This document shows positions 4,511-26,218 of a stretch of 32,754 nt of DNA, piece by piece. The stretch spans positions 1 to 32,754 of the forward strand of contig JAQVHY010000022.1 in NCBI GenBank assembly GCA_028695935.1, read 5' to 3'. The notes beneath the pieces were generated by a model. The model had not been told where the DNA came from and did not search any database. It saw only the letters and a program-made list of their open reading frames with translations. The stretch comes from Desulfobacca sp. (GTDB lineage Bacteria > Desulfobacterota > Desulfobaccia > Desulfobaccales > Desulfobaccaceae). Position 1 is the stretch's first letter. Each line of letters opens with the position of its first letter. The translations under genes were made by a program, and so were the position numbers.

Positions 4511-5446
4511 TTAGGGCGGGGAGGGCAGATAAGATCTCTCTAAGGCCCGGATTAAATGGGTGATAGTCGTGTTAACCGGCGTAGGCACCCCCAGCTTTTG
4601 ACCTAAGACGACGATCTGGCCGTTTAAGGCCTCGATTTCGGTAGGGCGTTGGGCCAACACATCCTGTAACATGGAAGAGCGGTTCCGGGCCGTAGCTCGG
4701 CAGACCTGCCGGACGCGGTTTAAAGGATCAGGGCTGATCGCAATACCCACCGCCTGGGCCACCGCCTGGGCTTCTTGCACCGCCGCACTGGTTACCTGCC
4801 AAGCCTCGGACACTTCCAACAGCCCGCCATTAGGCAGACGGGTAAGGGCGGTAAGGGGGTTAATACCAACATTTACCAAGAGCTTATCCCAAATCACCGC
4901 CACAATGTCGGCGGCACTCTGACAGTCAAAACCCGCGGCGACAAAGCGGGATACCCAGTCTGCCAACTGCTCCGGCCGGACCTGGGAGCCGGGTGGAATG
5001 CCCAAAATAGTCTTCCCCGGTCCGGCATGCCGGGCCTGCCCCCATTCCAGCAGGGTTACGCCATGCATGATCACTCCGGCCAGCAAGTGTTCCGGGCCGA
5101 CCACCGCGGCCATCTGTTCCAGGTTGCCAATGCCGTTTTGCAGGGTCAGGGCCAATCCCCCTCCGGCCATTAAGGGGGGCAGGCTCTGGGCCGCGGCCCG
5201 GGTCTGATGAGCCTTGACGCTCATAATGGTTAGATCGCAGGGACCGATATCCTGGGCCTCGCAGGTGCAGTTCACCGTTATGTGTTGTTCCTGGTCATCC
5301 AGGGTGATTAACCGGATACCCTGGGCCTGGAGGTAGGCGGCCCGGTCAGGGCGGTAGTCGACCAACCATATTTCCGTCGCCACTTTCTGTAGCCAGACAA
5401 CCAACAGACAACCCAAGGCCCCGGGACCGATGATGGCAATTTTCAC
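4511..5446 (-). CDS. panE: 2-dehydropantoate 2-reductase (ketopantoate reductase)
   Basis: PanE reduces ketopantoate to pantoate with NADPH, the step before PanC in pantothenate and CoA synthesis. The 311 residues start with the Rossmann motif GPGALG (7-12). SVKAHQT (Lys78) and LQNGIGN follow. The C-terminal ApbA domain has WDKLLVNVGINPLTALT, in which the family's catalytic lysine lies. GTG at 5446 is the best start: it sits directly before KIAIIGPGALG and has GAGGA seven to eight bases upstream. An upstream in-frame ATG would add 19 unconserved residues. The other pan genes in this window (panC, panD) are 19 kb away, so the pathway is split here; panB is not seen. ApbA-family paralogues exist, so the symbol is likely but not certain. 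Confidence 0.85.
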   Translation of the reverse strand: MKIAIIGPGALGCLLVVWLQKVATEIWLVDYRPDRAAYLQAQGIRLITLDDQEQHITVNCTCEAQDIGPCDLTIMSVKAHQTRAAAQSLPPLMAGGGLALTLQNGIGNLEQMAAVVGPEHLLAGVIMHGVTLLEWGQARHAGPGKTILGIPPGSQVRPEQLADWVSRFVAAGFDCQSAADIVAVIWDKLLVNVGINPLTALTRLPNGGLLEVSEAWQVTSAAVQEAQAVAQAVGIAISPDPLNRVRQVCRATARNRSSMLQDVLAQRPTEIEALNGQIVVLGQKLGVPTPVNTTITHLIRALERSYLPSPP

Positions 5447-5601
5447 AGTGGTATCCTCGGAAATTGTTGCATGGTAAGTAACCCAAATCACCTGGTTCGT
5501 CAAGTTGGAAGCCCTAGTTTATAGATGCTTGGGCATAAAAAGTCTAGACTTAAAATATTATCCCGGCGGAAGTTTAGGTTAATCGCTTGAGGTCAGGTCG
5601 T

Positions 5602-21400: not shown

Positions 21401-22657
21401 TTATGTCCCCAGATCGAAAGAGGCCAGATATTTTTCCTGTTCCGGGGTCAGGGTGTCGATCTCGATCCCCAGGGCCGCCAGTTTGAGCCGGGCAATCTCC
21501 CTATCAATCTCCACCGGTACCGAATAGACCCGCTTTTCAAACTTTTGGTGATTCTTAAAGATATATTCAGCGGAAAGGGCCTGATTGGCAAAGCTCATGT
21601 CCATCACCGTAGAGGGATGACCTTCCGCCGCGGCCAGGTTGACCAGACGGCCTTCACCCAGGAGATTGACCCGCTTGCCATTGGTCAGGGTGTACTCCTC
21701 GACAAAATCACGGATGCGCCGGACACCGGTAGAGACCGCTTTGAGACCGGGCAGGTCCAGCTCCACATTAAAATGCCCGGAATTACAAACGATAGCGCCA
21801 TCCTTCATAGTCAGATAATGTTCCCGGCGGATGACATTGATGTCCCCGGTCAAGGTGCAAAAAATATCCCCGACCTGGGCGGCAGCCGCGATCGGCAAGA
21901 CCTGATAGCCATCCATCACTGCTTCCAAGGCCCGCAAGGGTTCAACTTCACAGATAATCACCCGCGCCCCCATGCCGCGGGCCCGCATGGCTACTCCGCG
22001 GCCACACCAGCCATATCCGGAGACCACAAAGACACTGCCCGACATCAGGCGGTTGGTGGCCCGCAGGATGCCGTCGATGGTGCTCTGGCCGGTGCCATAG
22101 CGGTTATCGAACATGAATTTGCTCTGGGCATCGTTAACCGCGATCATGGGATAGTTCAACACCCCTTGGGCCGCCATGGCCTTGAGGCGAATAACCCCGG
22201 TGGTGGTCTCTTCGGTGCCGCCCAGAATGCCCGGCAGGAGTTCCTGGCGCTTGCTGTGGGCGCTGAATACCAGATCAGCCCCGTCATCCATGGTGATCAT
22301 CGGTTTAAGGTCAAGGGCGGCATGGATATGTTTATAGTAGGTTTCACTGTCTTCACCTTTAATGGCGAAGGTGGGGACTTCTTCAAATTTGGCCAGAAAG
22401 GCGGCCACGTCATCCTGGGTACTCAAGGGATTAGAAGCACACAGACGGAGCTCGGCACCGCCCGCCTTCAGGGTAGTCATCAGCACTGCGGTTTCGGTGG
22501 TGACATGCAAACACGCGGCCAGACGCAGGCCCTGTAAAGGTTTTTCTTTTGCAAAGCGTGCCGCAATCGCACTGAGTACCGGCATATCCTGGCGCGCCCA
22601 TTCGACCCTGAGCTTACCCTTCTCGGCTAGAGATAAGTCCTTGACATCATAATCCAT
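21401..22657 (-). CDS. ahcY: S-adenosylhomocysteine hydrolase (short form)
   Basis: AhcY splits SAH to homocysteine and adenosine and so relieves product inhibition of methyltransferases. The 418 residues carry the family marks: [12 protein letters not shown], the NAD loop [26 protein letters not shown] and NSGHFNVE. It lacks the extra insertion and the usual C-terminal HYRY; instead it ends SFDLGT. That is the short type known from archaea and thermophiles. ATG at 22657 has GAGG seven bases upstream. It lies directly after metK on the same strand, but a terminator-like hairpin is between them, so expression may be partly separate. Confidence 0.95.
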
Positions 22658-22693
22658 ATTTATACCTCATAATATAACGTAAAGAAATTTCAT

Positions 22694-22728
22694 AAAAATG
22701 GCGGGGTATGCCTCAGCTCTGCCCCGCC
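22694..22728 (-). terminator. Terminator-like hairpin between metK and ahcY
   Basis: On the minus strand GGCGGGG and CCCCGCC form a seven-base GC stem around a 15-base loop, followed by ATTTTT. It would end or reduce transcripts coming from metK before ahcY. The loop carries GAGG, but no known SAH-riboswitch motif was found. Confidence 0.55.
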
Positions 22729-22750
22729 GGAAGCTAGAATCGACTGCAAC

Positions 22751-23917
<1,167 letters not shown>

Positions 23918-23996: not shown

Positions 23997-24374
23997 TTAA
24001 ACAGACAAGGAGCTGGTGGGAAAAGGCATCCGGGCCTGATTATGGGCATCCACAAAGATGATTTGGGGTTGGTATTGCTGAAGTTGGGCCTCGGCATAGG
24101 TGGCATAAGTAGTAATAATAATTAGGTCTCCGACCGCACCCTTGCGGGCCGCAGCGCCATTCAGGCAAATTATGCCACTACCCGCCTCGCCCTCCAAGGC
24201 ATAAGTTTGAAATCGTTCGCCATTGTTAATGTTATAGACATGGACCATTTCGTAGGGCAGGATATTGGCCAGTTGCATCAGGCGGCAATCAATGGTCAGC
24301 GAACCTTCATATTGCAGATCGGACTCGGTAACCGTAGCCCGGTGAATTTTGGATTTGAGCATGGTGCGCATCAT
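23997..24374 (-). CDS. panD: Aspartate 1-decarboxylase
   Basis: PanD makes beta-alanine from aspartate for pantothenate. It is made as a proenzyme that cuts itself at Gly24-Ser25 to form the pyruvoyl group; YEGSLTID is visible at exactly this position when counted from the first ATG. Length is 125 residues. The start ATG overlaps the panC stop in an ATGA overlap (24371-24374), which implies translational coupling. Confidence 0.97.
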
Positions 24375-25225
24375 GATCTGGATTCCTCTAATAGAAAATT
24401 ATCAATTAAACGGGTCGGACCGATCCGTACAGCTAGGGCCAAACGAGCAGCGCCTCTTACCCTGTCAACTTCGGCTAAAGTCGATGGATCCACCAGCGCC
24501 ACGTAATCAATAATGGTTTCCGGGCTATGATTAAGCAACTGCTGCACCACGGCCATAATTCGCTCCCGGGCCACCTGCCCGCCGGCGACCAGCTTCTGGG
24601 CCGCCTGCCCCGCCCGGTACAGGCAGAGGGCGGTTTGGCGTTCGGTCGGATTCAGGTAGAGGTTGCGGGAACTCATGGCCAAGCCGTCCGCTTCCCGGAC
24701 AATGGGACGGCCCACTACCGCCAGGGGCAGATTAAGATCAACGACCATCCGTTGGATAGTTATTAATTGTTGATAGTCTTTTTCGCCAAAAACCGCGATC
24801 TGGGGCTGGACCAGATTGAATAATTTAAGGACCACGGTGGTAACCCCCCGAAAATGCGTCGGCCGACACGCGCCGCACAATCCTTGGGTTACCTCTTCGA
24901 CGGTCACATAAGTCTGATAGCCGGGCGGGTACATGGACTCAGGCTCAGGGGCAAATAGTACATCCACCCCCACCTGTTGGGCCAATTCGCAGTCCCGATC
25001 AAAATCCCGGGGATATCGGGCTAAATCTTCCTGGGGGCCGAATTGGGTGGGATTGACAAACAGACTGACCACCAGACAATCCCCCACCCGACGGCCATAC
25101 TCCATCAGGCTCAGATGTCCCTGATGAAAAAACCCCATGGTCGGCACCAGCACAATCCGCTGGCCCGCGGCCCGCCACTTCAGGGCCTGATCCTGCATGT
25201 CCTGGGGATTTCGGATGATCTCCAC
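24371..25225 (-). CDS. panC: Pantothenate synthetase (pantoate-beta-alanine ligase)
   Basis: PanC joins pantoate and beta-alanine through a pantoyl-adenylate. The 284 residues show [15 protein letters not shown] (HIGH-like HQGH, 34-37), [27 protein letters not shown] and MSSRNLYL (KMSKS-like). A TTG at 25231 is in frame, but GTG at 25225 has AAGG seven bases before it and gives the standard N-terminus MEIIR. panD follows with an ATGA overlap, so panC and panD share a transcript. It is preceded by a hairpin leader (25244-25298). Confidence 0.96.
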
Positions 25226-25243
25226 TGCCAAACCTTAATTGAC

Positions 25244-25298
25244 AAAAAAAAACTCCAGACCTTACCGCTGGAGCTTTTACTCCTCCTGCCTTCCAGCG
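25244..25298 (-). promoter_or_regulatory. Attenuator-like leader of panCD
   Basis: Read on the minus strand, AGCTCCAG (25275-25268) and CTGGAGTT (25258-25251) form an eight-base stem followed by nine T, ending 19 bases before panC: a terminator. Just upstream, CGCTGGA (25298-25292) is perfectly complementary to TCCAGCG (25272-25266), which includes the 5' arm of that terminator. Both pairings cannot exist together. This is the layout of a riboswitch or attenuator expression platform. A pan RNA motif is known upstream of pan genes in some Deltaproteobacteria; membership is not shown here. Confidence 0.6.
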
Positions 25299-25362
25299 AG
25301 TCTCAGTCCATTGCCCTTGGATCCAAGCTCTAGGCCCAATTTAACACCCAACATTATGGATT

Positions 25363-25391
25363 TTTTAACATAAAGGTAATCAAAATGTCAA
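25363..25391 (-). promoter_or_regulatory. Possible panC promoter
   Basis: TTGACA (25391-25386 on the minus strand), 17-base spacer and TTAAAA (25368-25363). The -35 is perfect and the -10 is weak. A leader of about 130 bases, including the attenuator-like hairpins, would follow. Confidence 0.4.
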
Positions 25392-25480
25392 GTCCGACAA
25401 TGATATTTATGGTCGAATTTCTAGGGCTTGATAATCTAATTTATAATGTGAAAACTTTTCCTTTCCCTCTGGTTTTTTGC

Positions 25481-25508
25481 TTGACATCTGTTTATATTTA
25501 TGTAAACT
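25481..25508 (+). promoter_or_regulatory. higBA promoter with overlapping operator palindrome
   Basis: TTGACA (25481-25486), 16-base spacer and TAAACT (25503-25508). An imperfect palindrome with arms GTTTA and TAAAC (25490-25507) covers the spacer and the -10, as expected for binding by the HigA antitoxin. The predicted transcript start is almost at the toxin GTG (25516). Confidence 0.6.
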
Positions 25509-25515
25509 ATCTGTT

Positions 25516-25884
25516 GTGTCGAAACGGAAAATAAAGGTCTTTTATGAGGGCAATTATCATATTGTGGAGTTAGCCGTGACTCATGATGGCAAATGTCCAG
25601 CCCAAGACTTCCTGAATCGGCTCGCAAAAAAGGATTTAGTCAAGGTCGTCCGTATCGTCAAACGATTAGCCGATTTTGGTAAAATATATAATCGTGAGCA
25701 ATTTAAAAAAATTGAGGGCGATTTTTGGGAGTTTAAATCCTCCCAGATCCGATTGCCCTGTTATTTCAAGCCTGGTCACCGGTTAATCATAACCCATGGG
25801 TTTATAAAAAAAGGCAATGAAATCGGCCCGGTGGAAATCGATCGGATGACCAGAATTAAGATGGAATATGAAAAGGAGGATTAA
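25516..25884 (+). CDS. higB: HigB/RelE-like toxin (phage-derived Gp49-like family)
   Basis: HigB-type toxins are ribosome-dependent mRNA interferases. The 122 residues have the RelE fold pattern: KVFYEGNYHIVEL (beta 1), GKCPAQDFLNRL (helix), FKKIEGDFWEFKSSQIRL and FKPGHRLIITHGFIKKGNEI. No ATG lies near the front; GTG at 25516 is the most upstream codon after the predicted promoter and gives the expected N-terminus. The mRNA would then be nearly leaderless. The antitoxin gene begins two bases after the stop. The toxin-first order is characteristic of HigBA. Divergent from panC. Confidence 0.85.
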   Translation: MSKRKIKVFYEGNYHIVELAVTHDGKCPAQDFLNRLAKKDLVKVVRIVKRLADFGKIYNREQFKKIEGDFWEFKSSQIRLPCYFKPGHRLIITHGFIKKGNEIGPVEIDRMTRIKMEYEKED

Positions 25885-25885
25885 G

Positions 25886-26218
25886 ATGAGTCTTCTTCAG
25901 GAATATATGAGAGATGATCAATTCAATAGATTAATGGCCCAAGAAGACCTTATCATGGAGGTTACTGAGACCCTTTGCAAACTGATGCAAGAAAAAGGAG
26001 TATCACGTACTGAATTGGCGGCGCGCCTTGGAAAATCAAAGGGATTTATTTCCCAGGTCCTCAATGGCGGCAGGAACCTTACTCTTCGGACCATAGCTGA
26101 TATAGCTGAAGTTTTGGGGTATAAGCTTTTGCTCTTGCCCCAAAGAAAACCCAAGATTCAAGAACGAGAAGTTATTGGTTTGGAATCTTCCCATCCGAGA
26201 CGGGGTGAAATCAACTAA
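25886..26218 (+). CDS. higA: HigA-like antitoxin, HTH-XRE
   Basis: The 110-residue protein has a central HTH_3 domain, LCKLMQEKGVSRTELAARLGKSKGFISQVLNGGRNLT broken by helix turns, then TIADIAEVLGYKL. It neutralises the toxin upstream and usually represses the operon. ATG at 25886 follows AAGGAGG (25873-25879) by six bases and is one base after the toxin stop, so translation is coupled. A further in-frame ATG at 25868 lies before this site and is rejected. The C-terminus (GLESSHPRRGEIN) is polar and flexible. Confidence 0.88.
   Translation: MSLLQEYMRDDQFNRLMAQEDLIMEVTETLCKLMQEKGVSRTELAARLGKSKGFISQVLNGGRNLTLRTIADIAEVLGYKLLLLPQRKPKIQEREVIGLESSHPRRGEIN

Follow-up and report, generated by a model that had tools for sequence, protein, structure and literature searches.

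A single-hairpin pan-type RNA element as likely transcription attenuator of panC-panD, and a possible second target in bacteria without PanB

The window, i.e., the whole stretch of 32,754 nucleotides from a contig of Desulfobacca sp. that was analysed, carries panC and panD on its minus strand, as well as a gene for a PanE-like ketopantoate reductase, before which no pan element was found with the covariance model described below (Table 1). The start of panC is most likely GTG 25225-25223 (Shine-Dalgarno-like AAGG at 25236-25233), as judged from its alignment with the ATG of relatives; the TTG at 25231 of the open reading frame list is disfavoured on the same grounds. Genes for S-adenosylmethionine synthetase and S-adenosylhomocysteine hydrolase (21401-23917, minus strand) are located 3' of panD and may be reached by read-through. 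Divergently from panC, a HigB/HigA-like toxin-antitoxin pair (Gp49-like and HTH_3; 25477-26218, plus strand) is encoded, for which no counterpart was seen ahead of the leader in the near-identical relative L002 and which therefore probably represents a recent insertion above the panC promoter.

Table 1. Features of the panC-panD leader and associated genes in the window
Feature	Position	Strand	Details
Predicted promoter	25363-25391	-	-35 TTGACA 25391-25386, 17-nt spacer, -10-like TTAAAA 25368-25363
pan-type hairpin (putative sensor)	25298-25330	-	GAG CUUGG (A) UCC - loop - GGA CUGAG (A) CUC, two bulged A
Antiterminator	25257-25309	-	25309-25305, 25301-25300 and 25298-25292 with 25261-25257, 25265-25264 and 25272-25266, respectively
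Intrinsic terminator	25244-25273	-	6-bp stem CTCCAG/CTGGAG, 9-nt loop, nine T
panC, pantoate-beta-alanine ligase	24371-25225	-	Pfam PF02569, 343.8 bits
panD, aspartate 1-decarboxylase	23997-24374	-	Pfam PF02261, 170.3 bits; 4-nt overlap with panC
PanE-like ketopantoate reductase (ApbA_C)	~4511-5503	-	

Transcription of panC-panD is predicted to start near 25356. The promoter fits the leader of about 130 bases assumed in a preliminary description of this DNA, and it lies upstream of position 25266, so that the later start named there as refuting an attenuator finds no support. L002 and L003, the nearest relatives, also keep the TTGACA/TTAAAA promoter, and further relatives have promoters of the TTGACA type 5' of the hairpin. 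The window's promoter is absent from the list of the promoter scan, because its -10 element lacks the T required at position 6. The terminator, previously placed at 25244-25275, is indeed found there on the minus strand, with arms at 25273-25268 and 25258-25253 and a T run at 25252-25244, and ends 18 nt 5' of the panC GTG. It was not reported by the automatic terminator scan, since the latter allows loops of up to 8 nt and the loop here comprises 9 nt.

The alternative hairpin that the preliminary description had set against the terminator proved exact (CGCTGGA 25298-25292 with TCCAGCG 25272-25266) and, as claimed, the two exclude each other. The pairing reaches further than described, including AC 25301-25300 with GT 25265-25264 and GGACT 25309-25305 with GGTCT 25261-25257, and forms the core of an antiterminator that is conserved in 25 aligned leaders. 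In the window, this duplex (GGACU/GGUCU, AC/GU and CGCUGGA/UCCAGCG), broken up by internal loops, has an energy of -20.4 kcal/mol (z -3.3 versus shuffles). The antiterminator has bases in common with the pan hairpin as well as with the terminator and thus excludes both. A terminator and an exclusive antiterminator, the hallmark of a transcription attenuator, are situated between the predicted promoter and panC. The sequence CTTGGATCCAAG, noted earlier as further structure, is present at 25328-25317, but its palindromic character is incidental, as CTTGGATCC represents the 5' arm of the hairpin 25330-25298.

This hairpin reads GAG-CUUGG(A)UCC-loop-GGACUGAG(A)CUC with one bulged A per side. The window holds a single instance of the core pattern GCTTGGATCC-N-GGACYGAGAC, and 100 shuffles hold none. 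The pan RNA, known from delta-proteobacteria, Firmicutes and Chloroflexi, consists of a stem in which two bulged A are conserved; it is located 5' of genes for PanB, PanC or aspartate decarboxylase and occurs mostly in tandem, the original description speaking of 'most', not all (PMC2864571). In the window, the genes downstream of the leader, panC and panD, agree with this location, whereas the leader harbours one hairpin instead of a tandem. The Rfam search at the gathering score yielded no match in the window. The pan model RF01749, proposed earlier as a check, does align along the whole leader, but with 18.4 bits versus a gathering score of 36.2; of the two hairpins in the model, the leader clearly matches the second alone, with both bulged A and the CUUGG/CUGAG core. 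Likewise, none of the panC loci of 20 relatives reaches the pan cut-off, and above-threshold pan matches were obtained in three genomes among the relatives (G022, G043 and G052), one of them in the window's order. The tandem model is unfit either to accept or to reject a single-hairpin variant. Matches of SNORD22 and snoZ247 in the window are attributed to chance, since these are snoRNA families and the scores remain far under the respective thresholds. Because the tandem model gives 18.4 bits against its cut-off of 36.2, the panCD leader is regarded, from its sequence, as a single-hairpin pan-type variant, for which Rfam membership by score is not claimed. Whether the attenuator candidate belongs to the pan RNAs or is distinct, left open in the preliminary description, can be answered with pan-type, by virtue of the same bulged-A stem and the same downstream genes in a single-hairpin form.

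PanC is encoded in 53 of 59 related genomes, and in every relative of the order with a readable leader, hairpin, linker and terminator are located directly 5' of panC, the T run of the terminator mostly touching the panC ATG. The hairpin core is invariant in all 25 aligned leaders, including the unpaired A10 and A31 (numbering of the window's row). Across these leaders, 99 % of the cells of the hairpin and 92 % of those of the terminator are paired, versus 19-49 % overall in slid controls. Covariation, the absence of which would have spoken against the preliminary description, is present in both: the loop-end pair of the hairpin shows a compensatory change (15 G-C, 7 A-U), and two-sided changes occur at three terminator pairs (among others C-G/U-A in 6 sequences). 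In the same 25 leaders, the 3' arm of the hairpin together with the linker can pair with the 5' arm, the loop and the start of the 3' arm of the terminator. Native antiterminator duplexes (-19.4 kcal/mol, mean z -2.3 versus shuffles) are more stable than swapped ones (-17.7 kcal/mol; permutation p 0.00015). Two sequence types achieve the pairing in different ways, CUC/GAG plus CGGG/CCCG in family f2 and UCGC/GCGA in some members of family f1. The covariation of the antiterminator is modest within families (p 0.034), as the hairpin's 3' arm scarcely varies. A covariance model (R1, 82 positions) finds the element in all 29 genomes of the order, which documents its presence and is not an independent test, since many of these genomes supplied the model. 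The minimum free energy of the window leader alone is ordinary (z -1.25 versus shuffles) and was not used as evidence; support for the leader elements is comparative and does not derive from the folding energy of a single leader.

The single-hairpin form extends well beyond the order. Scanning 84,980 species with the pattern GCTTGGATCC-N(3,16)-GGACYGAGAC yielded at least 119 genome stretches, and the titles of the matches listed name Deltaproteobacteria, Acidobacteria, Chloroflexi, Clostridia, Nitrospinae, Myxococcota and others. Of 113 distinct elements among the matches listed, 53 were followed by panB, 21 by panC, 20 by a DUF2520-like reductase gene, 7 by hxlB and 2 by panD, and 110 of these 113 have no second hairpin within 120 nt. 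Positions left free by the pattern covary: the basal pair is paired in 98 % of 111 distinct elements among the matches listed versus 86 % in shuffles; for the apical pairs of the same elements, the values are 73 versus 45 % and 59 versus 39 %. The Rfam pan cut-off was reached by 2 of 20 pattern-found loci searched. Few Rfam passes and mostly single elements together indicate a widespread variant that is largely missed by the tandem model. Two pattern matches (L144 and L150) precede unrelated genes and possibly arose by chance; a pan-type hairpin in the Clostridia bacterium R1-B15.2 (L112) stands before an OPT-type transporter gene, named by eye, and may be either a sign of pan control or a chance match.

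The leader very likely represents a single-hairpin pan variant acting as transcription attenuator of panC-panD, with the folded hairpin as OFF state; its polarity, the identity of the effector and an action by hairpin stabilisation are what we infer. An effector, presumably reporting sufficient pantothenate or CoA, would hold the pan hairpin 25330-25298 folded and thereby bar its 3' arm from the antiterminator, such that the terminator 25273-25244 could form and transcription would stop before panC. With the hairpin unheld, its 3' arm and the linker would pair with the 5' arm and loop of the terminator, and RNA polymerase would read through. Since hairpin and antiterminator are incompatible, as are antiterminator and terminator, a stabilised pan hairpin should lead to termination. 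This dependence renders the reverse polarity, in which the folded hairpin favours expression, improbable: the 3' arm of the hairpin belongs to the antiterminator, so that folding favours termination, and in the leaders of hxlB (see below) an upstream CCUCC-like stretch can reach across the folded hairpin and sequester the Shine-Dalgarno sequence. The latter is a weak trend (mean z -1.4), with p ~0.01 in some hxlB leaders and no such sequestration in others. A plain intrinsic terminator that closes a transcript from upstream and shields panC, without any switching, would by itself look alike at 25244-25273. It is a most improbable explanation, however, considering that the terminator follows the predicted panC promoter and is near the start codon in all relatives, that the 1 kb upstream contains no end of a minus-strand gene, and that the antiterminator is conserved.

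Less readily set aside, though short of the expected case, is a variant of the attenuator reading in which a regulatory RNA-binding protein rather than a metabolite stabilises the pan hairpin. With only 33 nt, the hairpin is small for a metabolite aptamer, hence a protein effector is possible, and its strong sequence conservation and two bulged A agree with this. Moreover, the discoverers of the pan RNA proposed a dimeric protein-binding motif, since most are tandem (PMC2864571). This dimer argument is gone for the present variant, however, as 110 of the 113 elements among the matches listed are single, and no candidate protein has been identified. In the literature searched, no effector was found for the pan RNA, which has been described since 2010. 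For the attenuator favoured here, a single hairpin with plain terminator and antiterminator shrinks the question of the pan effector to an RNA of about 90 nt accessible to in vitro transcription.

According to the covariance model, most genomes of the order carry the hairpin a second time. The additional copy in the window's genome is located at G000:C137:21667-21721 (locus L185/L211), 5' of hxlB (6-phospho-3-hexuloisomerase, TIGR03127) and a gene for a 429-aa fusion of 3-hexulose-6-phosphate synthase (HPS, TIGR03128) with an RraA-like aldolase domain (PF03737); further such loci of PanB-less genomes are L186-L208, L231, L233, L234, L071 and L076. The pan hairpin stands 5' of hxlB in the window's order, in families f3 and f63, and in the separate genome of L076. 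The strict pattern is missing before hxlB in the f1 genomes G003 and G005; in G003, a hairpin that has diverged yet can still pair is present there. In f18 genomes with the fusion, no copy was found in the vicinity of hxlB or of panC, nor does one accompany the unfused HPS of PanB-bearing f39 genomes. Since the same hairpin precedes the hxlB-fusion pair in the same genomes, the pan regulon of the order would comprise panCD and hxlB-hps/rraA. In hxlB leaders, the hairpin is followed by the Shine-Dalgarno sequence, and in many species a terminator-like hairpin with T run resides inside the gene start. At L189-L202, the terminator-like GGGAGGCTTTTTTTT falls within the first hxlB codons, and the N-terminus of HxlB (LPS..REAFFSES) therefore seems shaped by the RNA element.

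PanB (PF02548) was found in none of the 29 genomes of the window's order (control genomes: 11 of 14 positive), while PanC, PanD and PanE are present, PanE in 28 of 29. The ketopantoate reductase of the order is likely PanE; the DUF2520 reductase, considered for this role, is absent (0/29). Among 197 genomes sampled from the phylum, PanB is present in 174 and absent in 23, and the full-length fusion occurs in 16 genomes, all among the 23 without PanB and none among the 174 PanB-bearing ones (Fisher p 2e-18, genomes being treated as independent despite their kinship). The fusion lineages are the window's order, f3, f18 and f63. In a larger sample, the fusion was found in 25 of 395 genomes, the newly found ones all being PanB-less; this comparison covers one phylum.

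Based on regulation, domain content and phyletic pattern, we propose as a possibility close to evenly balanced that the pan-controlled hxlB-hps/rraA operon replaces PanB in PanB-less bacteria, ketopantoate being formed from formaldehyde and 2-oxoisovalerate. In line with the established enzymology of their families, HxlB and HPS running backwards would release formaldehyde from fructose 6-phosphate. HxlB and the HPS half would convert fructose 6-phosphate via hexulose 6-phosphate to formaldehyde, the RraA-like aldolase half would join the latter to 2-oxoisovalerate, and PanE, PanC and PanD would then turn the resulting ketopantoate into pantothenate. A precedent for the aldol step is YfaU, a metal-dependent 2-oxoacid aldolase that adds formaldehyde to 2-oxoacids, as does PanB in vitro (PMC7611260). 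The RraA-like half keeps the stretch WGELAT...DGAxRD, aligned with the RD pair of the solved RraA-like protein 3k4i. Formaldehyde release, aldolase precedent and the kept RD stretch together suggest that the operon could make ketopantoate without folate; a link between hexulose-6-phosphate synthase and ketopantoate was not found in the literature searched.

Conceivable as well, if somewhat under an even chance, is a role of the operon in the handling of formaldehyde or in making pentoses by the ribulose monophosphate route, with the link to PanB absence reflecting shared ancestry. By their scores, the two proteins are canonical HxlA and HxlB, and the fusions are 72-91 % identical to one another, so that the lineages may share one transfer and the genomes are not independent. 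However, the pan hairpin before the operon in the order, f3 and f63 ties it to the pantothenate genes, the unfused HPS-PHI genes of PanB-bearing f39 lack this hairpin, and the RD pair kept in the RraA-like half aligns with solved RraA-like proteins. Should the replacement of PanB hold true, vitamin B5 would be made by a route that needs no folate, the formaldehyde being passed on within a single fusion protein. Through its second target, the pan element indicates which genes may stand in for the absent PanB in bacteria that possess the remaining pantothenate pathway.

The element resembles the pan RNA RF01749 in its stem with two bulged A, the core CxUGGAUCC...GGACYGxGAC and the pan genes downstream; it differs by its single hairpin, sub-cut-off score and explicit terminator/antiterminator, and by a regulon that also covers hxlB-hps/rraA, where the hairpin adjoins the Shine-Dalgarno sequence. 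Transcription-terminating OFF riboswitches include the FMN and lysine classes. Common to these and the proposed attenuator are a sensor 3' strand shared with the antiterminator and a terminator beside the first gene of a biosynthetic operon, whereas the sensor here is a single 33-nt hairpin without junction or pseudoknot, and its ligand is putative. PanB and the proposed HxlB/HPS-RraA system would agree in their product, ketopantoate, and the same RNA element precedes panB elsewhere; they are unrelated in sequence, and formaldehyde would be derived from a sugar phosphate instead of methylene-tetrahydrofolate.
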